Positions 38,856 to 52,519 of a DNA stretch of 64,000 nucleotides are shown here, piece by piece. Every line of letters starts with the position of its first letter. Within the stretch, counting starts at the first letter, position 1. A model generated the notes under the pieces. It did no database searches. It was not told the DNA's origin and saw only the letters and a list, made by a program, of their open reading frames with translations. The stretch lies in the NCBI GenBank assembly GCA_002937505.1, contig PTJY01000003.1, positions 316,060 to 380,059 of the forward strand. The letters are read 5' to 3'. Made by a program: the position numbers and the translations under genes. The DNA comes from Alphaproteobacteria bacterium MarineAlpha12_Bin1. GTDB taxonomy: Bacteria; Pseudomonadota; Alphaproteobacteria; UBA6615.

Positions 38856-39719
38856 TTATGAAAGTAAGCTCATCAGATAAATCGAGTATTCATTCTGAGG
38901 CGCCGACTGTGCTAGCTTCTCTAACTCGCCATCAGATATATATCCCTTTCTAAAGGCAATTTCCTCTGGACAAGCTATCTTAAGGCCTAGACGTCTTTCT
39001 ATCGACTGAACAAACTGAGCTGATTCCATTAAACTGTCATGCGTTCCAGCGTCAAACCATGCCACATCTGTGCTTAGGGAATGTACGATGAGCTCTCCTC
39101 TATCAAGGTAAACACGATTCACATCTGTTATTTCGAGTTCGCCTCTATTAGATGGACGTACGTTAGCCGCAATTTCTAAAACACTGTTATCATAAAAATA
39201 AAGACCTGTTACAGCTAGATTTGAACGAGGCTTCCTAGGTTTTTCCTCTATGTTCAAAGCTTTCCCTTTATTATCTACTTCTATTACCCCATAACGATTG
39301 GGGTCTTTAACGGGATAACCGAACACTATAGCCCCTTCTTTAAGCTCTGCTGCACTTTTCAACAGCAACTCAAGGCCATTCCCATAAAAAATATTGTCAC
39401 CAAGAACTAGAGCACAATTATCATTTCCTACGAATGACTCACCAATTATGAACGCTTGTGCTAGTCCTTCTGGACGAGGCTGGACAGCGTATTCGATGTT
39501 TATTCCCCATTGATTTCCGTTACCTAGTGTCCTCTGAAATACAAAAGAATCATCAGGGGTAGAGATTAACAGAATATCTTTAATCTCAGCGCTCATTAAA
39601 ACTGATAAGGGGTAGTATATTAATGGCTTATCATAGACCGGTAAAAGCTGCTTGCTTACTGCTTTTGTAAGCGGATAAAGTCTGGTACCGGCACCTCCTG
39701 CTAGAATTATTCCCTTCAT
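38856..39719 (-). CDS. rmlA: Glucose-1-phosphate thymidylyltransferase
   Basis: First step of dTDP-L-rhamnose synthesis (dTTP plus glucose-1-phosphate). [11 protein letters not shown] near residue 8 and [19 protein letters not shown] are the nucleotidyltransferase signature, then [10 protein letters not shown] and [10 protein letters not shown]. 287 residues is normal. Starts 2 bases after rmlD; gene order on the minus strand is rmlB, rmlD, rmlA, gor. Confidence 0.96.
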
Positions 39720-39721
39720 AA

Positions 39722-40636
39722 CTAACTTTTCTGTATCTCTATATTATTTAATGTTTTAAGCTCACCAATTACCTGGGATAGACTGCTTAAAAATGGCGCG
39801 GGATAAACATCAAAAACTCGACCGATACGTGAACAATCTAATACAGAGTAGCTAGGTCGTCTTGCAGTCGTCGGATACTCATTCGTCGAAACAGGATATA
39901 ATCTAGGTGTTTTAATACCTAATCGATCTTCAGCCAATCTAAAAACCTCACATGCAAACTCATACCAGGATAGCTCCGTGTCGCCACAATAGTGAAATGT
40001 ACCCCACTCAACTTTTGGTCCTTGCAAGAAAATCTTATCCCCTAATTCTAATAGAGTTTTAGCAATGTCATAAGCTGCCGTGGGACAGCCTATTTGATCA
40101 TTAATAATTTTCAATTCTTCTCTTTTTTGGCCTAGATTTAGCATTGTTTTGACAAAGTTATTACCGCTAGAGCTATATACCCATGATGTGCGTAGAATAA
40201 TATGTTTTTCGAGAAGCTCTCTAACAGCTTTTTCCCCTGCTAGCTTACTATCGCCATATACACCCAGAGGAGCATTTGCATCATCCTCAATAAAACCACA
40301 GTCTTTCGTACCATCAAAAACATAATCGGTAGATATATGGATTAATGGGATATCCACTTCACAGCAAGCCTGAGCCAATATTGCTGGTCCGTCAGAGTTA
40401 ATTCTAAAAGCTTTTTCTTTTTCTACTTCCGCACCATCTACATTTGTATAAGCCGCAGCATTGATGATTAAATCACAATCATAGTCCTTCATAACAGCCG
40501 TCACATCTGTTTCCTTAGTTATGTCTAAATCTCTGTGAGAAAAACCAATAATTAAAAAATTCTGTTCTGAACCAAAAGACATAAGCTTTTGACCAACTTG
40601 TCCCCTACTCCCAAATACAATAATTTTCCTGGTCAT
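39722..40636 (-). CDS. rmlD: dTDP-4-dehydrorhamnose reductase
   Basis: Last step of dTDP-L-rhamnose synthesis. [10 protein letters not shown] binds [13 protein letters not shown] and [12 protein letters not shown] carry the catalytic Y and K. 304 residues. Starts 18 bases after rmlB and ends 2 bases before rmlA. Confidence 0.95.
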
Positions 40637-40654: not shown

Positions 40655-41725
40655 TTAACACGTGTTTCTATCGTTACTTAACCCGAGACGTCCACCGTCA
40701 TATGAGTTATCTAATATTTGCTTCCACCAGTCATCATTTTTAACATACCATCTGACAGTCTTTTCTAAACCGGTTTTAAAAGTCTCCTGCGGAGACCAAT
40801 TTAATTCATTTTTTATCTTCGTAATGTCTATTCCATATCGGTAGTCATGTCCCGGTCGGTCTTGTACAAAAGAAATTAGCTCTCTTCTAGGTTTATGATT
40901 ATCTGAAGAAAAAGATTCGTCTAAAATATCGCAAATCATATTTACAACAGAAATATTCTTCATTTCTGTTCCTCCACCTATGTTATAGGTTTGACCTACT
41001 TTTCCCCTGCACAAAACTGACCAAAGAGCTCTTGCATGATCATCTACGTGAAGCCAATCTCGAACATTTTCTCCGGTTCCATAAACAGGTAAAGGCTTGT
41101 ATAAAACTCCGTTTATAATCATCAGTGGAATAAGCTTTTCTGGAAATTGAAAAGGACCGTAATTATTTGAACAGTTGGTTATAATAGTTGGCAAATTGTA
41201 GGTTTCATTCCATGCCCTAACGAAGTGGTCAGAGGAAGCCTTGCTAGCTGAGTAAGGCGAATTCGGTTTATAAGGAGAATTTTCGTTAAATAAACCTTCG
41301 ACTCCCAAAGATCCATATACTTCATCGGTTGAAACATGAAGAAATTTAAATTCTTTGTTTTTTGATTTACCAACATTAGACCAATACTCCAGAGCCACCT
41401 CAAGTAGATTGCAGGTGCCAATAACATTGGTGCCAATAAACGCAGACGGACTATCAATAGAACGATCCACATGAGATTCTGCCGCCAAATGTATAACCGC
41501 ATCTGGAGAAACATCAAAGAATATTTGTCTTAGCTTATCTTTCTCACAAATATTTGCTCTGATGAAGTTATAATGACCGTTTTCTTCTACACTATCTAAA
41601 GCACCTGGAGCTGCTGCATAAGTCAAAGCATCCAAATTGAAAATAGTGGAATCCGTCTCACTAATCAAAAAACGTATTAAGGCTGAACCAATAAATCCAG
41701 CACCTCCGGTAACAAGAACTTTCAT
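40655..41725 (-). CDS. rmlB: dTDP-glucose 4,6-dehydratase
   Basis: Second step of dTDP-L-rhamnose synthesis. TGGAGFIGSAL at residues 7-17 binds NAD, STDEVYG carries the catalytic Thr-Asp-Glu, YSASKAS has the YxxxK pair and the HVDRSID substrate loop is present. 356 residues. Head of the rmlB-D-A operon; divergent from the ABC exporter operon. rmlC is separate at 50616. Confidence 0.96.
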   Translation of the reverse strand: MKVLVTGGAGFIGSALIRFLISETDSTIFNLDALTYAAAPGALDSVEENGHYNFIRANICEKDKLRQIFFDVSPDAVIHLAAESHVDRSIDSPSAFIGTNVIGTCNLLEVALEYWSNVGKSKNKEFKFLHVSTDEVYGSLGVEGLFNENSPYKPNSPYSASKASSDHFVRAWNETYNLPTIITNCSNNYGPFQFPEKLIPLMIINGVLYKPLPVYGTGENVRDWLHVDDHARALWSVLCRGKVGQTYNIGGGTEMKNISVVNMICDILDESFSSDNHKPRRELISFVQDRPGHDYRYGIDITKIKNELNWSPQETFKTGLEKTVRWYVKNDDWWKQILDNSYDGGRLGLSNDRNTC

Positions 41726-41977: not shown

Positions 41978-42141
41978 ACTTTCCAGTGAATTGTTAAAAA
42001 TTATTGTAAAAAATTCTATATATAATAGGTTTAAAATCCTCTTGCCAAACTGTTGCCTGTTTTTTAAACCATATATATTCTTTATGATGAAACATCACTT
42101 TTAAATGTCTAGCTCGACTACCAATTTTGAAACGTGTCTCT

Positions 42142-43026
42142 ATGGAAAATAATGAGGGAAAAGAATCCCACTCCTCAACAGAAGTTGCGGCACAAGATGG
42201 ACTTGGACTACTAGACAAAGATATGAGTAATGGATCACAAACATCAGTCAAGCTGGCATTGTGTGATTTGTGGTTGGGCATTAGTCAATGGCGTCTGTGG
42301 ATTCTACTTGGTTGGCAGGATATAAGACAGCGTTACCGTCGGTCACTTCTTGGCCCGTTCTGGTTAACACTGAGCATGGCAATAATGGTGGGTGCACTAA
42401 GCTTTCTTTATGGAGCCTTATTCTCACTTGATCTTGATGATTACTTACCTTTTCTTTGTCTTGGTTTTATTGTTTGGGGATTAATTTCTGGAATAGTGAC
42501 TGATGGCTGTGTTGTTTTTATTGGATCCGAGGCCTTTATTAAACAAATCAGTTTACCACTATCGGTTTATGTCTATAGGTTAATTTGGAGAAACCTGATA
42601 ATTTTTGGCCATAACATGGTCGTTTTTGTAGTTGTTGCTTGTATCTTCTCGATTTGGCCCGGCTGGTCAGGATTACTCCTATTGCCTGGTCTTATTTTAA
42701 TCTGTGCTACGGGGGGCTGGGTTTGTCTGCTTTTAGGTTTAATTAGTGCCAGGTTTAGGGACGTTCCTCAGTTAGTAGCAAGTTTCATTCAAGTCGCATT
42801 CTTTTTAACACCTATCATATGGAAGCCTGAATTACTCGGAGACAGGTTTGGAATTGTTGATTTTAACCCTTTCTATCATTTTGTAGAGATAATCAGACAA
42901 CCAATGCTTGGTAATATGCCTGACAATACATCTTGGTTGGTTACCATTGGCTTTACAGCACTAGGATGGATCCTAACTTTTCTCATTTTTTCGCGCTTTC
43001 GCGGTCGCATAGCTTACTGGGTATAA
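42142..43026 (+). CDS. wzm: ABC-2 type polysaccharide export permease
   Basis: Inner membrane permease for ABC-dependent O-polysaccharide export. After a polar N-terminus it has [22 protein letters not shown], a classic start for the family, then six or so membrane helices including FFLTPIIW and the C-terminal [12 protein letters not shown] 42142 is chosen over TTG 42127; 294 residues. The ATPase follows after 5 bases. Confidence 0.9.
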
Positions 43027-43031
43027 TAAAT

Positions 43032-43778
43032 ATGGCCTCTATTCACTTACGCAATGTCGATGTTGATTTTCCCTTATATAGTGGAGCCAGCCGCTCTCTT
43101 AAAACAAGCCTACTGCATCTAGGCAGTGGTGGACGAATTGGCCGAACTGTTAGCGATCGTATGTGTGTCCAAGCTCTAACTAAAGTATCTCTTCAACTAA
43201 AGGATGGAGACCGGCTCGGCATAATAGGGCCAAATGGGTCAGGAAAAACTACACTTTTAAGAGTTCTTTCCAGTATTTATGAGCCTTCAGCGGGACAGGT
43301 TTTTATTGAAGGGTCAGTTGCCTCCCTTTTCGATGTAGCTCTTGGGATGGATACAGAAGGCACAGGCTATGAAAATATCACCTTACGAGGAATGTTACTC
43401 GGACTTAGCCGCTCTGAAATTGAAAAAAAAGTTCATGATATAGCTGAATTTACCGAACTTGGTGACTACCTTAGCATCCCTGTTAGAACCTACTCCAGCG
43501 GAATGCTTTTAAGGCTTGCGTTTGCGGTTTGCACCTCCGTAGAGCCGGAAATTTTACTTATGGATGAATGGATAGGTGTAGGTGATGCACGTTTTCTCGA
43601 AAAAGCAAGAGTTAGGCTTGACGATTTTGTACACGGATCGAGTATATTAGCGTTAGCCTCACATTCAAACGATTTGATTCGACAAGTCTGCAACAAAGCG
43701 GTTCTAATGGACAAAGGCAGCGTGTCAGCCTTTGGTGAAGTCAAAGAAATAATCGAATATTATGAACAAAATTACTAA
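43032..43778 (+). CDS. wzt: ABC polysaccharide exporter ATPase
   Basis: ATPase that pairs with the permease. Walker A is GPNGSGKTT at residues 66-74, the C-loop is [12 protein letters not shown] in the family's altered form, Walker B is ILLMDEWIG, and the switch is LASHSND. I start at MASIHLRNV (ATG 43032), which follows the permease stop at 5 bases; the frame is open further up but overlaps wzm. Only 248 residues, so it lacks the C-terminal carbohydrate-binding domain found in WbdD-coupled Wzt proteins. Confidence 0.92.
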
Positions 43779-43891: not shown

Positions 43892-46800
43892 ATGAGTGAT
43901 CTAAAAGAGCCAAAAAGTAGCGAGAGTTTAAACGAGCTTTCTCTTTTGTATGATGAGAATTATTATCAAAACGGCTGCGGTATACCTTATGAAAGAAATA
44001 AACATTGGTTAAATTTTTTTGGTGCAATAGCTGATGAAATAATCAGAAGCCTAAACCCACAAAAAGTACTTGATGCCGGATGTGCATGGGGATTCTTGGT
44101 CGAATCTCTTTGGGATAGAGGAGTTGAATCTTGGGGAATTGATATATCAGACTATGCAATTGATAAAGTCCGACCAGATATGAAGAAATACTGTTCTGTG
44201 AGATCCCTTACACAACCTATCGATAGTAAATTTGATCTTATTACTTGCATTGAAGTACTTGAGCATATCCCTGAGAACGATGCTCGCAAAGCAGTCGAAA
44301 TACTTACTAATGCTACAGAAACAATTTTATTTTCATCTACTCCAAGAGATTTTGATGAACCCACTCACTGTAATGTCAGGCCTATTAAATATTGGTTGAA
44401 ATTATTCTCTGATTTCAACTTCTGGCCAGAAATAAATTATAATGCATCATTTATTGCTCCTCACGCTATTTTGCTAAGAAAAAGCTCAACACCCATATCT
44501 GATGAGGTTTTAATACTTTTTAGCGAGAAGATAAGGCATGCAATGGATGTATATGACCGTGACACAGAAATAGGAAAATATCATCATAAGATTAACAGCC
44601 AATTTACTGAGCTTTCCAAAGATATCTCCGATAAAAACAAAGAAATCCTAGCCTTAAATGAACACATCAATTTACAAGAAGAAAGAATAGAAAAGCGCGA
44701 TATATTATTATCTAGGAAAGAAAATTATTTAACTGAAAAAGAGAATTTAATTGATGACTTAAACAGTCGACTAAATCTTACTAAACAAGCATTAGAAGCA
44801 GTTCTTGTTTCAACCTCATGGCGCCTTACATCTCCTTTGAGAACTATTAAAAAAATTGGTTTATTTGCTAAAGATTGTATTCGTAGAAGAAATAAAATTT
44901 ATTTACATGGATCAGACTATGATTCAGATTCATCAAAAAAAGAGACGCCACTAGTTAATCTTGTCCCTGAAAAAGAACAATATCCAAATGGGTGGTGCTT
45001 ATTTAGTTATAAGCTCACCGATAAATCAGTTCTCAATCGAGTTTATATTCATGTTCAGGTTAACAACGAGTTAATTCCACAAAACTGGATAACCTTATCA
45101 GGTGATAACTCAGAAATTAGTAAAGGTGTTTTATGCTTTCCAGATAAAGTTAATAAAATATTTTTGGAAATGTCTAACCCTGATTACCACACTAAAGTTC
45201 ATTCAATAAAGCTTACAGAAATAAGTAAAGCAGAGGCCACGGCTAGACTGATTTGGTATCGTCTTTTGCCAAAATTAAGAAATCCTGTTTCTTTTACAAA
45301 ATTACTTTTGCAAGCTGTTTATGTCCTAAGAAAAGAAGGATTTAATGGAATAAAAAGATCCTTATTAGACTGGCAGAATAATCATCTAGCTGAAAATGAT
45401 TACAATAGATGGATTTCAAAAAATGATTCTCTTACGGATAATGACAGGGGAAATATTAAAGACCGGATAAACAAAATGGCTGAAAGTCCAACTATCAGCG
45501 TAATTCTGCCTATCTATAATCCACCAATAAAATTTCTTAAAGAAGCAATAGAATCAGTACTATTTCAGCTTTATCCTAATTGGGAACTATGCATTGCTGA
45601 TGACGCCTCAACTAATAAAGAGATAAAAAAAATTATTGAGGAATATCGGAGTTTAGACGATCGAATAAAGGTCGTTTATCGAGAAACAAATGGTCATATT
45701 TCGCTTGCTTCAAATAGCGCTATTGAAATAGCAAATGGTCAATACATAGCCCTTCTTGATCACGATGACCTACTAGCCGAGCATGCTTTGTATTTGATTG
45801 CCGAAACTATTAATAAAAACCCCAATTCAGCAATTATATATAGTGATGAAGATAAAATTGACGATGAAGGTAATCGTTTTTCTCCTTACTTTAAATCTGA
45901 ATGGAACCCCGACCTTTTTTTAGCCCAAAATATGATAAATCATTTAGGAGTGTATCGACTAGATATTGTCAACCAAGTCGGAAGATTTAGAGTAGGATTT
46001 GAAGGAAGCCAAGATTATGACCTTGCACTGCGAGTTACTGAGGTTACTGAACCAGAGCAGATCCATCACATACCCCATATTTTATACCACTGGAGAGCTA
46101 TTGAGGGTTCTATCGCCTTAAATAGAAACGAAAAAAAATATGCACACGAGAAAGCAAATAATGCCATCAAAGAACATTTAGTTAGAAGAAATATAAAAGC
46201 TGATGTTCTTTCTAGCCCAAGTGGAGCTTATCACAGAGTAAAATATCACCTGCCAAAAACTCTTCCAAAGGTAAGTTTTATTATACCAACAAGAGATAGA
46301 CCTGATTTACTAGAGGTGTGTGTAAACGGAATATTGAACGAGACAAATTACCCAAACTTAGAAATAATTATTGTCAATAATCGGAGTTCTGATCCTGATG
46401 CTTTAGTCTACCTTAAAAATATTGATAAGAACCCTAAAGTGTCCGTTCTGGATTACAATAAGTCTTTTAATTATTCAGCCATAAATAATTATGCGATTGA
46501 ACATGTTACAGGGTCCTTAATTGTGCTTTTGAACAATGATATAGAAGTGATTGATCCAGAATGGCTGAATGAAATGGTCTCTCATGCAATTCGTGCAGAA
46601 ATAGGTGCTGTTGGAGCCTTGCTGTATTACCCAGATAATACAATTCAGCATGCTGGGGTAGCCCTTGGAATTGGAGGAGTGGCTGGCCATCTGCATATTA
46701 ATAAACCTAGAGGAACTACAGGATATTTTGGACGTGCGGAAATAAGTCAGAATATTTCTGCCGTTACTGGCGCCTGCATGGTAATGAGAAAAGAGGTTTT

Positions 46801-47116
46801 TCAAAAGGTTGGGGGACTAAACGCTGATAATCTATCGGTGGCGTTTAACGATATTGACCTTTGCATACGAATTCGGGAAGAAGGCCTTAAATTAATTTGG
46901 ACTCCTTTTGCAGAATTATATCATCATGAATCAGCTAGTAGAGGAAGCGACCAAACAGCAGATAAAGTTGGAAGATTTAATAGAGAAATTGAATATATGA
47001 AGGAAGCCTGGGGTGAGATCCTACTCACTGATCCATTCTACAGCCCGAATTTATCTTTAAAAAACGGTAACTTCACTCTGGCAGATAACCCACGGACTAA
47101 AAAACCATGGAAATAA
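43892..47116 (+). CDS. Multidomain methyltransferase / coiled-coil / tandem GT2 glycosyltransferase
   Basis: A 1074-residue chain in four parts. Residues 1-220: class I SAM methyltransferase, with DAGCAWGFLVE near 60 and CIEVLEHIPENDA. About 235-300: strongly charged heptad-like coiled coil. 307-317: STSWRLTSPLR module, also in the next gene. About 340-480: beta-rich linker of unknown fold. About 533-760: GT2 domain with SVILPIYNPP, LLDHDDLLAEHALY and the LYHWRAIEGS box. About 793-1060: second GT2, with FIIPTRDRPDLLE, LLNNDIEVIDPEWL and GACMVMRKEVF. The tandem GT2 part resembles bifunctional polysaccharide polymerases; the methyltransferase plus coiled coil resembles the terminating and ruler parts of WbdD. 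That combination is inference. Cytoplasmic. Confidence 0.88.
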   Translation: MSDLKEPKSSESLNELSLLYDENYYQNGCGIPYERNKHWLNFFGAIADEIIRSLNPQKVLDAGCAWGFLVESLWDRGVESWGIDISDYAIDKVRPDMKKYCSVRSLTQPIDSKFDLITCIEVLEHIPENDARKAVEILTNATETILFSSTPRDFDEPTHCNVRPIKYWLKLFSDFNFWPEINYNASFIAPHAILLRKSSTPISDEVLILFSEKIRHAMDVYDRDTEIGKYHHKINSQFTELSKDISDKNKEILALNEHINLQEERIEKRDILLSRKENYLTEKENLIDDLNSRLNLTKQALEAVLVSTSWRLTSPLRTIKKIGLFAKDCIRRRNKIYLHGSDYDSDSSKKETPLVNLVPEKEQYPNGWCLFSYKLTDKSVLNRVYIHVQVNNELIPQNWITLSGDNSEISKGVLCFPDKVNKIFLEMSNPDYHTKVHSIKLTEISKAEATARLIWYRLLPKLRNPVSFTKLLLQAVYVLRKEGFNGIKRSLLDWQNNHLAENDYNRWISKNDSLTDNDRGNIKDRINKMAESPTISVILPIYNPPIKFLKEAIESVLFQLYPNWELCIADDASTNKEIKKIIEEYRSLDDRIKVVYRETNGHISLASNSAIEIANGQYIALLDHDDLLAEHALYLIAETINKNPNSAIIYSDEDKIDDEGNRFSPYFKSEWNPDLFLAQNMINHLGVYRLDIVNQVGRFRVGFEGSQDYDLALRVTEVTEPEQIHHIPHILYHWRAIEGSIALNRNEKKYAHEKANNAIKEHLVRRNIKADVLSSPSGAYHRVKYHLPKTLPKVSFIIPTRDRPDLLEVCVNGILNETNYPNLEIIIVNNRSSDPDALVYLKNIDKNPKVSVLDYNKSFNYSAINNYAIEHVTGSLIVLLNNDIEVIDPEWLNEMVSHAIRAEIGAVGALLYYPDNTIQHAGVALGIGGVAGHLHINKPRGTTGYFGRAEISQNISAVTGACMVMRKEVFQKVGGLNADNLSVAFNDIDLCIRIREEGLKLIWTPFAELYHHESASRGSDQTADKVGRFNREIEYMKEAWGEILLTDPFYSPNLSLKNGNFTLADNPRTKKPWK

Positions 47117-47176: not shown

Positions 47177-48277
47177 ATGAGTCGAAAGGACAAAATCCTT
47201 AAGAACATAGATGTCCAATCGATGAAAGGTATTGAGATTGGAGCGCTTGATCGCCCAACAATAAGCCCTAATGAGGGGTCAATTCTTTATGCCGATCATG
47301 CATCGACTGATGACCTTCGCAGGAAATACAAAGATGATAGTAACGTTAATCTTCCGGAGATTGTTGATGTTGACTTTGTACTGGGTGATAGAAATTTAAC
47401 TCATTCTGTAGGCGAAAAAAACAAGTTTGATTATGTAATAGCAAGCCATGTGATTGAGCACGTCCCTGACGTTATAAGCTGGTTACAAGATATATCTAAT
47501 GTATTACAAGATGGAGGCATACTATCTTTAGTAATCCCTGATAAAAGATTTACATTTGACTATTTTCGAGCAACTACTACTGCTGGTGAACTGATTGAGT
47601 CATACTTAAGTAGATCAACTAGGCCTTCTACAAAACAAATATTTGATTTTTTTTCAACCTCGATAAAACTCGATGCCGTCCAAAGGTGGAACGGAAAACT
47701 AGATGAGGCTCAACTTGCTAAGCTTCATTCCCTATCGCTCGCAGAAAAAAAATCAAAAGAAAACCTTGAGAATAATGAATATGTGGACATCCATTGTACT
47801 GTTTATACTCCAAAATCATTTTTTCAATTAATTGAAGTATTATTTGAACTAGATCTAATAAGTTTTAAGGTCGTAAGCTTCTTTGATACATCAGAAAATG
47901 AATTAGAGTTTTTTGTTTCATTTCAAAAAATTCCTTCGAGCACTAATAAGGAGCAGGCTCGTTTCTTGAAACAACAAAGTGTTCCTAAAATAGAAAGAGA
48001 TAGTTTGGAGCTCGCTCAACAAAAACGAACTCAAAAATTAGAAGACACCATAAACTCCTTATCCCGGCAAAATGAAAAACTTATGGCTATTCAAGATTCG
48101 TTGTCTAAAAGACTGGTTGAAGCTTCTGAAGAAATATTATTGGCCAACAAAAGAGAAAATGAGGCTAGAGAAGGTTTAAAAGTAATACATGCATCAACTT
48201 CATGGCAGATGACTGCTCCAATCAGATCTCTAAAAAGGTTTTACACTTCTCTGATGGGTCGAAAAAACCATAATTAA
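47177..48277 (+). CDS. SAM-dependent methyltransferase with coiled-coil tail
   Basis: A 366-residue protein. Residues 15-140 hold the methyltransferase: GIEIGALDRPTISP, then FDYVIASHVIEHVPD and DGGILSLVIPDKRFTFDYF. Residues 270-335 form a likely coiled coil (QQKRTQKLEDTINSLSRQN, then EASEEILLANKRENE), and residues 340-350 are STSWQMTAPIR, matching the STSWRLTSPLR module in the preceding gene at a similar position after its coiled coil. This suggests the two proteins share a partner or localisation (inference). Acceptor unknown; a sugar of the O-polysaccharide is likely. Confidence 0.85.
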   Translation: MSRKDKILKNIDVQSMKGIEIGALDRPTISPNEGSILYADHASTDDLRRKYKDDSNVNLPEIVDVDFVLGDRNLTHSVGEKNKFDYVIASHVIEHVPDVISWLQDISNVLQDGGILSLVIPDKRFTFDYFRATTTAGELIESYLSRSTRPSTKQIFDFFSTSIKLDAVQRWNGKLDEAQLAKLHSLSLAEKKSKENLENNEYVDIHCTVYTPKSFFQLIEVLFELDLISFKVVSFFDTSENELEFFVSFQKIPSSTNKEQARFLKQQSVPKIERDSLELAQQKRTQKLEDTINSLSRQNEKLMAIQDSLSKRLVEASEEILLANKRENEAREGLKVIHASTSWQMTAPIRSLKRFYTSLMGRKNHN

Positions 48278-48319: not shown

Positions 48320-49588
48320 TTGTTCGAAGAAAGAAACATTACGGGCAGTGTTTTCTGGCCATTTACTTTAGCCTTAGCAATAATGTTGCCAGTCAGCATG
48401 ATTGACTATCATGGACTAGTCCCTCTGGCTGCTGCTCTAGGAGTATTAGCCTTTATTAAAGAGCTAAGAAAAGGAATTAAGCTTACTATTTACTCGATTC
48501 AGCCTATTTTAATCTTTTCTGGTCTTTTATTAATAGGAGCCTTTTCATTAATATGGAGCTATAATGCAAGTGTTTCCCTTGATCGACTTTACCATCTTTT
48601 AGCTGTGTTTTTTATAGGTTGTATGGTTCTTGGGTCCGCACATCTGCAAATATCTAGATCAGCCAACTTGCGCACATCGTCTATTGCCTACCTTATAGGG
48701 ATCTTCCCTTGTCTACTATTTGTTTTATTGGAAGCCATTATTGGGAATTCAAGTTTTAATATCTCCAGCTTTTTAGATATTACTCTCTCTCTTTCAAACC
48801 CAACAGTAACCATAATTGCAGTTTTTGCGCTTCCTGGATGCCTATTGTTATGGAAAGGGATAGGGCCTAAATCAGCTATAATAGTTTTCATTACTAGTTG
48901 TATAGTAATCTTTTCTTCTAATAGCCTAGCTGCCAATATTGGTCTTATTGTGGGTTCTCTGGTGACAATAATTATTCTCTTAGGAGGTAAGAAAGCTTTT
49001 GATTTTACATCAATTTCAATGATTTTGATTGTACTTTTTTTACCTATCACAAGATTAATTCATGATTCTCCATTCTCATTTTTGCGCAAATTATTAGAAA
49101 ATACAGGTATTTCTATTCCTCCATCTGCTCTCCATAGAACATATATATATGACTTCGTCCTAGATAAAATTATCGATAACCCATTTGTTGGCTGGGGATT
49201 AGGCGTATCGCGGTACTTGCCCGGAAGTCAAAATAAAATCTTAGACCTGAATCGTGAGCTGATCCCCCTTCATCCTCATAACGGCGTTCTTGAAGTATGG
49301 GTTGAGTTAGGTGTTATAGGCGCATTAGGTCTTTCTTTAGTTATTTGGATACTGATGAGAGGAATCAAGAACAGAGTTCAGGACAGAGCATCAGCAGCCG
49401 TATTAGCCGGAGCTTCTACTGGATATATGACAATTGGACTAGCATCTTACAGTATTTGGTCCAGCTGGTGGATGACCACTGGAATATTAGCTGCTAGCCT
49501 ATGCACTACCTTATTTGCGCATCGGAAAGTTCCAAATACTGGTTCGTTTTCTTCCGAAGATATTAGCAATATATTCAAAAAAAACTAA
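48320..49588 (+). CDS. O-antigen ligase family protein
   Basis: A 422-residue polytopic protein with about ten membrane helices. NPFVGWGLGVSRY followed by HPHNGVLEVWVELGVIGALGL is the Wzy_C/O-antigen ligase signature; the H in HPHN is the likely catalytic residue. In an ABC-dependent system with no Wzy elsewhere, ligation of the polymer to lipid A-core is the best role; a polymerase role is possible. TTG 48320 gives a normal first helix; ATG 48381 would remove part of it. Last 78 bases overlap the opposite GT2 gene. Confidence 0.85.
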   Translation: MFEERNITGSVFWPFTLALAIMLPVSMIDYHGLVPLAAALGVLAFIKELRKGIKLTIYSIQPILIFSGLLLIGAFSLIWSYNASVSLDRLYHLLAVFFIGCMVLGSAHLQISRSANLRTSSIAYLIGIFPCLLFVLLEAIIGNSSFNISSFLDITLSLSNPTVTIIAVFALPGCLLLWKGIGPKSAIIVFITSCIVIFSSNSLAANIGLIVGSLVTIIILLGGKKAFDFTSISMILIVLFLPITRLIHDSPFSFLRKLLENTGISIPPSALHRTYIYDFVLDKIIDNPFVGWGLGVSRYLPGSQNKILDLNRELIPLHPHNGVLEVWVELGVIGALGLSLVIWILMRGIKNRVQDRASAAVLAGASTGYMTIGLASYSIWSSWWMTTGILAASLCTTLFAHRKVPNTGSFSSEDISNIFKKN

Positions 49589-50494
49589 CTTCAGTGCTTT
49601 TAACAAGAAGCGTATTAATATTCCCAGTTTAATAAGCATTACAATAAAAGAATTCAAACTTGAAAAGTTCTTATTAAAGTAAATCATAAACCCTCGTGCT
49701 TTGTTCCACTCTATAAATATTTGAGAAGCACGGCTTGTACTTAAAGCATGTGTTACTCTTACGCTAGGAACGTAAAAAATTTCTCCTTTATTACGACGAA
49801 ACCTATGACAAAAATCAATGTCCTCTACATGAATAAAAAACTCTTCGTCCATTCCATTTAGAGACCAGTAATCGGCAGTCGGAAGAATCATACAAGCCCC
49901 GCTAATAGTCAGAACTTTCTCAGTATCAACGGCAATAGGATTCGAGTTAAAATTAAGCGCGTTTAATTTTGGTAACAAACGAAAAACCCAATCTGGGGAA
50001 AAAACAGTAATGAATGCAGTAAGCGGCGTTAAAGCTCTTCTTCTACTTCCACTTTGCTCTTTCCCATCAGAACCAACTAGTCGACAACCTAGCATCCATG
50101 GGCGAATCTTTTTTCGCCCAATATTTATAAGTTTTACAAGTGTTTCCGAAGCCATAATGCAGTCGGGGTTAAATAGCATTAGACATGATCCTCTAGCTGA
50201 CTTCGCACCAAGGTTACAACCAGCTGAAAAGCCAATGTTTCCGTGACCAGATAAAACTTTTACTCGCTCATCTTTACTTTCGATAGTTTCTAGCCGTTCT
50301 AAATCTTCGACAGGATTACCATTGTTTACAATAATAAGGTCGGCTAAAGCATCTTGAGACAAAACACTTTCTATAGATCTGAATAGTATAGGCCCTGTAT
50401 TATAAGTTACCAATACTACACTCACTGTTATATCTAGATAAGAAGAGGCAGTGTCAGACAACCCCGCTTTGTCACTCATTTTACCTGCTTCCAT
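49511..50494 (-). CDS. GT2 glycosyltransferase (rhamnosyltransferase-like)
   Basis: A 327-residue GT2 enzyme: VVLVTYNTGPILFRSIESVL, then MLFNPDCIM (DxD-like), SGACMILPTADYW and VEDIDFCHRFRRN, the WbbL-like pattern. One or two hydrophobic segments near the end suggest membrane attachment. It likely uses dTDP-rhamnose, since the complete rml set is in this region. Its C-terminal end overlaps the convergent ligase gene by 78 bases. Confidence 0.85.
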   Translation of the reverse strand: MEAGKMSDKAGLSDTASSYLDITVSVVLVTYNTGPILFRSIESVLSQDALADLIIVNNGNPVEDLERLETIESKDERVKVLSGHGNIGFSAGCNLGAKSARGSCLMLFNPDCIMASETLVKLINIGRKKIRPWMLGCRLVGSDGKEQSGSRRRALTPLTAFITVFSPDWVFRLLPKLNALNFNSNPIAVDTEKVLTISGACMILPTADYWSLNGMDEEFFIHVEDIDFCHRFRRNKGEIFYVPSVRVTHALSTSRASQIFIEWNKARGFMIYFNKNFSSLNSFIVMLIKLGILIRFLLKALKLVFFEYIANIFGRKRTSIWNFPMRK

Positions 50495-50615: not shown

Positions 50616-51179
50616 TTATTCTATATATTTAAAATATGAGGGTAGGTCAGAAAACTTGGGCAGGTTGAGATCTTTGCTGGAGAGAAGTGCCTTCTCTTTA
50701 GACACCGGCCATTTTATACCAATGGATTCATCATCCCAGACAATTCCTTTGTCGTGATCAGGTGAATAATAATTACTTACTTTGTAAATAACTTCAGTAT
50801 TTGGTTCCAATGTACAAAGGCCATGTGCAAATCCTGCCGGCACTAATATTTGATTCCAATTATGGGTATCAATTACGGCAGATACATATTGTCCATAAGT
50901 AGCTGAGCCAACTCTCAGGTCCACAGCAACATCAAATATTGCTCCAGCGACAACTCGTACTAACTTATCTTGTTGAAAAGGAGGAATTTGAAAATGCAAA
51001 CCTCTGACAGTCCCCTTTAAAACAGAAAATGCATGATTATCCTGATTAAAATTTATGTTTATACCAGCCTCAGATAAATCTTTCTGGTTGTAGGTTTCAG
51101 AAAAAAACCCCCTATCATCTTCGTGCTTAATAATCTTAATAACGATAACTTCCGGTATAGCTAAACGTTCAATTTCCAT
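50616..51179 (-). CDS. rmlC: dTDP-4-dehydrorhamnose 3,5-epimerase
   Basis: Third step of dTDP-L-rhamnose synthesis. HEDDRGFFSETYN binds the nucleotide, TVRGLHFQ carries the catalytic H, and DVAVDLRVGS and FAHGLCTLEPNTEV follow. 187 residues. It is separated from rmlB-D-A by about 9 kb of exporter and transferase genes, on the same strand as them. Confidence 0.95.
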   Translation of the reverse strand: MEIERLAIPEVIVIKIIKHEDDRGFFSETYNQKDLSEAGININFNQDNHAFSVLKGTVRGLHFQIPPFQQDKLVRVVAGAIFDVAVDLRVGSATYGQYVSAVIDTHNWNQILVPAGFAHGLCTLEPNTEVIYKVSNYYSPDHDKGIVWDDESIGIKWPVSKEKALLSSKDLNLPKFSDLPSYFKYIE

Positions 51180-51290: not shown

Positions 51291-52289
51291 TTATACATTT
51301 CCTATTTTAGTAGAAACATCAAACTCCCTAAAAATAGGCGAGAATGGTTTAAAGTTAATTATTTTAAGAAAACACCACCAGGGAACAGTCCTTTGCGACT
51401 GTATTGAGCGTCGTATAGACCAAAAATAAGCTATTCCTTTAAAACCATCGAAAAGACCTCGTAGAGCAGATAACCCGACTTTGTTTTTTGAAGCAAAAAT
51501 TACTAAAGCGCCTAATGCTAAAACGTGAATAGGAATTAGAAATATTAATAGAGGTCCAGGTACATTTTTAGAAAAAGTCCAAATAATATTTCGAGTACTA
51601 TGATAGGCTGTAAAAGAGCTATGTCTTCCTGTAATTGCCGATCCAACATGCCTTACAAAAGAATCTGACACCAGCAGGCATTTGCCTCCTCGTAACCTCA
51701 TCCGAAAACCTAGATCTACGTCTTCAATATAGCAAAAAAAATGTTCATCGAATCCACCCACTTCTTCAAAGATATCTTTTCTATAAAGGGCGGCAGCAGA
51801 ACACGCTGAGAAAACTTCACCACTAGAGGGCAACTCATCAATTGATCGTCCATGCCCCCCACGCCAGACTAGACCGCTTAAGTGATAAACATCTCCAGCA
51901 CCATCCAATCTGGATGGATCTTTATCGCTTATTAGAACGGAAGCAAATGAAATATAACTAGGATGGCTTACAGATGCAGAAACAAGTTTTTGTAGCCAAT
52001 CTGGATCTGGGATAGCGTCAGGGTTAAGAGTAGCAATCCAGGTTGATTCTGTGTTTCTGACTGCAATATTATTTGCCGCTGCAAAACCCAAGTTTTCATC
52101 GTTTTTTATAATTTTATAATTACTTGGAAGATTTCCTAATTTACTCAGTGAATCATCTTTAGAGGCATTATCAACAATAATAACCTCATAATTTTCATAA
52201 GTCTGAAGCCTCAACGCAGAAATGCACCTATTGAGATGATCCCTTGCATTATAATTGACGACTATTACGCAGACATCTGGAGAGTCCAT
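51291..52289 (-). CDS. GT2 glycosyltransferase
   Basis: A 332-residue GT2: VIVVNYNARDHLNRCIS, VIIVDNASKDDS, LNPDAIPDPDWLQ and FFCYIEDVDLGFRMRLRGG. A C-terminal hydrophobic span (LLIFLIPIHVLALGALVIFA) suggests a membrane anchor. I start at ATG 52289 (MDSPDVCV) because the frame upstream does not resemble the family. Similar in type to the enzyme at 49511; together they may build a rhamnose-containing repeat. Confidence 0.85.
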   Translation of the reverse strand: MDSPDVCVIVVNYNARDHLNRCISALRLQTYENYEVIIVDNASKDDSLSKLGNLPSNYKIIKNDENLGFAAANNIAVRNTESTWIATLNPDAIPDPDWLQKLVSASVSHPSYISFASVLISDKDPSRLDGAGDVYHLSGLVWRGGHGRSIDELPSSGEVFSACSAAALYRKDIFEEVGGFDEHFFCYIEDVDLGFRMRLRGGKCLLVSDSFVRHVGSAITGRHSSFTAYHSTRNIIWTFSKNVPGPLLIFLIPIHVLALGALVIFASKNKVGLSALRGLFDGFKGIAYFWSIRRSIQSQRTVPWWCFLKIINFKPFSPIFREFDVSTKIGNV

Positions 52290-52519
52290 ATCTCTATTTG
52301 CCACACAGCAGACTCTCCTACAAGTAACTAATAAAAAAATCAGAGAAAAACTTTTGTGAATTATAAAAATTTTTTTCATGTCAAGATGATCACATAGCTA
52401 AATAATAAAACTGAAACTTATGCCTCAATTAATTAAATTAGTTTTAAATATCATTTAGTAAATTTTTGTAAATCCAAACATCCCTGTAGTTATGAGTGGC
52501 CTAAAAAGTAGAATTGCAG

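Follow-up and report, generated by a model that had tools for sequence, protein, structure and literature searches.

Two strategies have been described for O-antigens that follow the ABC transporter-dependent pathway: either capped chains, measured by a coiled coil, are read by a binding module of the exporter, or a pump that lacks this module exports chains in step with their synthesis. Wherever an O-polysaccharide is terminated, the Wzt carries a carbohydrate-binding module, or CBM, in every example (PMC11231755). The exporter of Klebsiella O1/O2 has no such module, and extension and export are obligatorily coupled there (PMC11231755); in V. cholerae O1, whose exporter is also CBM-less, the terminal methyl group is not needed for export (PMC10629545).

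Several proteins have been characterised in which the ending of a chain is joined to other functions. WsaE of Geobacillus stearothermophilus NRS 2004/3a is trifunctional, combining a methyltransferase at its N-terminus with two rhamnosyltransferase domains (PMC2943079, PMC3898925): it methylates alpha-1,3-linked rhamnose, and growth of the chain has been proposed to stop at the resulting 2-O-methyl cap (PMC2943079). In Klebsiella pneumoniae O7, the chain is terminated by ORF6, which unites a methyltransferase and a kinase with a coil and two dTDP-Rha GT2 modules, while WbbB of K. pneumoniae O12 unites a Kdo-transferring terminator, a coil and two glycosyltransferases in one chain (PMC11231755). 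Moreover, the WbdD of E. coli O8 methylates directly, without a kinase (PMC3482155).

The locus described here lies in a window (the whole stretch of DNA analysed) of 64,000 nucleotides from Alphaproteobacteria bacterium MarineAlpha12_Bin1. The genes rmlA, rmlD and rmlB are found upstream of Wzm and Wzt and divergent from them; downstream of a large fused protein are the genes for a second methyltransferase (MT2) and a ligase-like protein, two GT2 genes and rmlC:

38856..39719 (-), RmlA-like nucleotidyltransferase, matching rfbA of relatives
39722..40636 (-), RmlD (RmlD_sub_bind, E 3e-99)
40655..41725 (-), RmlB-like dehydratase, matching rfbB of relatives
42127..43026 (+), Wzm-type ABC-2 permease, start codon uncertain (ABC2_membrane, E 2e-12)
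43026..43778 (+), Wzt-type ABC ATPase, 250 aa (Pfam ABC_tran only)
43892..47116 (+), fused protein, a single ORF of 1074 aa
47177..48277 (+), MT2, second class I methyltransferase, with a C-terminal coil, an STSWQMTAPIR motif and a basic tail
48320..49588 (+), membrane protein of the Wzy_C / O-antigen ligase family, start uncertain (PF04932, E 6e-17)
49511..50494 (-), GT2 glycosyltransferase (Pfam)
50616..51179 (-), RmlC-like protein, from matches to rfbC/RmlC of relatives and synteny
51291..52379 (-), GT2 glycosyltransferase (Pfam)

With rmlABCD, Wzm/Wzt and a ligase-like protein together, this is, judging by sequence, probably an L-rhamnan O-polysaccharide locus. A rhamnan is the likely product because the sugar-nucleotide pathway encoded in the cluster is that for dTDP-L-rhamnose.

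The fused protein runs from a methyltransferase through a long helix, a basic helix and a strand-rich segment to two successive GT2 domains:

43946..44485 (+), class I SAM methyltransferase domain, residues about 19-198 (Pfam Methyltransf_23, AlphaFold2 model, PDB matches)
44501..44824 (+), long helix 204-311, predicted coiled coil (AlphaFold2, heptad-type heuristic)
44810..44842 (+), STSWRLTSPLR motif at the end of the coil
44828..44890 (+), basic amphipathic helix 313-333 (AlphaFold2 helix at low pLDDT)
44990..45220 (+), strand-rich segment 367-443 (low confidence in both AlphaFold2 models)
45467..46231 (+), first GT2 domain, about residues 526-780 (Pfam, AlphaFold2)
46247..47071 (+), second GT2 domain, about residues 786-1060 (Pfam, AlphaFold2)

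Pfam and AlphaFold2 thus agree with a preliminary description, made from the DNA letters, in placing a methyltransferase, a coiled coil and two GT2 domains in one 1074-aa chain beside an ABC exporter. The Methyltransf_23 match covers residues 53-152 (E 7e-10), and the DAGCA, CIEVLEH and DEPTH motifs of this domain are conserved. Two AlphaFold2 models were used: the glycosyltransferase domains were taken from the first, in which the methyltransferase was poor owing to too few relatives, and the methyltransferase and the helices from the second, in which the 10-residue blocks from residue 41 to 200 are mostly at pLDDT 84-98, a confident prediction. The long helix is modelled as uninterrupted, with pLDDT of about 88-96 to residue 300 and 71 near its end; it starts at residue 204, directly after the methyltransferase, and no kinase match was found in the fused protein with Pfam or in the AlphaFold2 model. 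The following helix has the highest hydrophobic moment of the protein (0.68) and a net charge of +5, and is a possible membrane contact. As regards the glycosyltransferases, both domains are mostly above pLDDT 90. Glycos_transf_2 matches two stretches (family E 3e-47, best at 536-680), and Glyco_tranf_2_3 also matches the second domain at 792-1012; the first has the chondroitin polymerase K4CP (2z87, Z 26.8) as a structural match, and the second has structural matches of the GT2/GT27 type.

The beta-rich linker of the preliminary description fared less well. Its strand-rich character is found in the models at low confidence, but it lies outside the conserved design: among the relatives collected, segment 367-443 is matched only by the same-genus protein, and the fused protein of Rhizobium tumorigenes is without it.

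A second genome of the same genus (L093) encodes a protein 56% identical over nearly its full length, and there too the order is Wzm, Wzt, fused protein and second methyltransferase, as in the window, with rml, GT2 and ligase-like genes around. The fused ORF and its gene order are therefore far beyond chance, and, as a homologue of nearly full length exists, an artefact arising from a wrongly chosen ORF can be ruled out. At that level, no match came from G002, the third genome of the genus.

When set against the described systems, WsaE is, as far as descriptions can be compared, alike in having a methyltransferase and two glycosyltransferases in one chain beside wzm/wzt and rml genes, with no kinase reported; it differs in serving a Gram-positive S-layer glycan, whose third linkage is made by a separate glycosyltransferase, WsaF. 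The O7 ORF6 shares the methyltransferase, the coil and the two GT2 modules in one chain, with wzm/wzt and rml genes in the cluster, but ahead of the coil it has in addition a kinase domain and a predicted CBM of Ig-like type, and it produces a methylphosphate end. The O12 WbbB, too, is a single-chain polymerase-terminator whose ruler is a coil, although its terminator is a Kdo glycosyltransferase and its transporter reads the cap with a CBM. The preliminary description had taken the design to be undescribed, which the characterised equivalents WsaE (PMC2943079) and O7 ORF6 (PMC11231755) contradict, with O12 WbbB (PMC11231755) as a further single-chain polymerase-terminator. Its proposal that one chain may polymerise, measure and terminate stands, by analogy, as a reading of the protein; what falls is its novelty, WsaE and O7 ORF6 having been characterised already.

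WbdD of E. coli O9a/O8, the model first invoked, shares with the fused protein the methyltransferase and the coil, and its O8 form is kinase-less; unlike in the fused protein, the polymerase WbdA is a separate protein, and in the O9a form the methyltransferase is followed by a kinase, of which the fused protein has none. When the methyltransferase was compared with WbdD, phmmer gave E 0.08-0.12, and Foldseek placed WbdD at ranks 49-50 among many class I methyltransferases. The candidacy of WbdD as the nearest methyltransferase is therefore unsupported, given these Foldseek ranks and its absence among the 50 VIA matches listed. As modelled, the domain is a generic class I fold which WbdD matches without being the closest.

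The exporter departs from that of the terminated systems. The Wzt of the window has an ABC ATPase match only and, as had been noted from its letters, no carbohydrate-binding domain: Pfam finds no Wzt_C/PF14524. A six-frame search for Wzt_C was likewise negative for the window's genome, its same-genus relative and G377, but gave matches in two genomes used for comparison; a Wzt_C encoded elsewhere in the genome was thus rejected. The best NCBIfam matches are to the galactan exporter, NF050109 for the permease (313 bits, under the cut-off of 380) and NF050108 for the ATPase (300 bits, under the cut-off of 400). The likeness to the Klebsiella O1/O2 galactan exporter lies in these best matches and in the lack of a CBM; the differences are that the window's proteins score under the curated cut-offs and that O1/O2 has no coupling to a coil-type terminator. 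The joining of a coil-type terminator, belonging to one strategy, to an exporter like that of the other is the unusual part of the locus. It has a partial precedent in V. cholerae O1, with its terminal methyl group and CBM-less exporter. The same mix is found in R. tumorigenes and one other bacterium, and systems already studied, such as that of WsaE, may include further cases of the variant.

Among related loci, the Wzts beside the fused proteins in L093, L043 (R. tumorigenes), L111 and L117 are without Wzt_C, which is present at every fused Methyltransf_24-type locus whose fetched stretch includes a Wzt, at the Methyltransf_25 loci L033 and L035, and at L098. The Methyltransf_23 and Methyltransf_11 loci thus differ from the Methyltransf_24 loci, but L033 and L035 do have the domain; with hand-made groups, the Fisher test of N-terminal type against Wzt_C gave p 0.018 without these two loci and 0.17 with them, and the idea that the N-terminal type predicts the exporter was dropped.

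The domain order was sought in other genomes, as the preliminary description had advised, and was found there with N-termini that are methyltransferases of several types or a sulfotransferase. Tandem GT2 pairs are common, with matches at E 1e-70 in 43 of 398 genomes from the phylum. A Methyltransf_23 N-terminus occurs in the window, L093 and R. tumorigenes (L043); Methyltransf_24 was assigned by Pfam in L041, L006, L007 and NGR234 (L047), and by sequence match in Azospirillum (L044 and L045) and others. Other N-terminal modules are Methyltransf_11 (L111) and Methyltransf_25 (L033, L035), and in some proteins none was found. The fused Methyltransf_23 form is rare, being seen among the genome samples only in the window's genus, and otherwise in R. 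tumorigenes (plasmid set) and one IMG/VR contig. In R. tumorigenes and Azospirillum, too, rhamnose genes adjoin the fused plan.

At L117:8156-11593 (-) and, with a weaker match, at L098:8765-12352 (-), the N-terminus of the plan is sulfotransferase-like, which would possibly mean sulfate capping. On the IMG/VR contig, of 77 kb (L123:2965-6003), the Methyltransf_23-type protein has a much longer coil, then GT2-GT2, and is followed by an MT2-like gene; the record holding it, which may be a fragment, gave no Wzt match. In Nocardioides (L040:7974-10708), the fusion is split, the methyltransferase and the tandem GT2 protein being encoded by neighbouring genes. Furthermore, on the conjugative E. coli plasmid pEC81-2 (L046:4519-9686), ABC polysaccharide export genes are accompanied by a Methyltransf_24 protein with a tandem GT2 protein directly after it.

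A motif of the type S-T-S-W-R-x-T-x-P-[LVIY]-R stands at the end of the coil, before the basic helix, at 44810-44842 and again at 48194-48226 in the window. It is also present in L041, L043, L044, L045, L094, L095, L097, L098, L104, L105, L111 and L119, and occurs at this position in many relatives regardless of the N-terminal module; these modules are unrelated, and the motif is perhaps a membrane or assembly element that the proteins have in common. A literature search for the motif found nothing. The second methyltransferase type (IEIGALDRP type) was seen in the window (47177-48277), L093, L104, L119 and L123, and carries a coil and a basic tail wherever the full protein was read.

The reading put forward, to which we give an even chance of being right, is that of a fused polymerase-terminator for an L-rhamnan O-polysaccharide of the ABC-transporter pathway, with a coil ruler, end methylation and cap-independent export. 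By analogy with characterised relatives, the two GT2 domains would add rhamnose, the presumed donor sugar, to a lipid-linked chain at the membrane, while the long helix, ending in the basic amphipathic helix, would keep the methyltransferase a fixed distance away from these domains. When the chain has reached sufficient length, its non-reducing end would be O-methylated and growth would stop. The lipid-linked chain would then be exported through coupling to synthesis, as in Klebsiella O2a; export is probably not gated by the cap because the Wzt is without a carbohydrate-binding domain. It counts against this polymerase-terminator reading that every published ruler system has, on its Wzt, the carbohydrate-binding module that is absent here, and that the chain could instead be ended by MT2, the other methyltransferase with a coil.

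The main rival, which we consider rather unlikely, is that the methyltransferase only decorates the glycan with terminal or internal O-methyl groups and does not stop its growth; chain length would then depend on how synthesis and export balance, and the fusion would just keep the enzyme near its substrate. A CBM-less exporter fits such a role, given that neither the terminal pyruvate of Klebsiella O1 nor the terminal 2-O-methyl of V. cholerae O1 is needed for export, and tandem GT2 proteins in which no N-terminal modifying domain was detected adjoin short Wzts in L108 and L109. However, a long helix still separates the modifying domain from the polymerase, as it does in known terminators, and the position of the coil differs among relatives, as expected of a ruler.

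The presence of MT2 suggests another solution, improbable in our estimate, in which this protein, like a kinase-less WbdD, terminates the chain or acts jointly with the fused protein, giving for instance a doubly methylated terminal rhamnose. MT2 does combine a methyltransferase, a coil and the same STSW-type motif, and it adjoins the fused protein in L093, L104 and L123 and the tandem GT2 protein in L119; yet there are fused methyltransferase-coil-GT2 proteins with no adjacent MT2, as in L043 and L045. It is very improbable, finally, that the cap is read for export by another module, such as segment 367-443 acting in cis: this segment is strand-rich and the O7 ORF6 has its Ig-like predicted CBM, but the segment is modelled at low confidence, and R. 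tumorigenes, where it is missing, also combines a fused protein with a short Wzt.

If the polymerase-terminator reading holds, the locus might represent, as we suggest tentatively, a third ABC-dependent mode, in which a fused terminator with a coil ruler would set chain length by a methyl cap that a CBM-less exporter would ignore, so that length control and export would be separate. The fused protein on its own adds one more case to a design already described, and it is its pairing with this exporter that is unusual: from a locus with a coil-type terminator and a pump lacking the module, one can learn whether cap recognition is required for length control.
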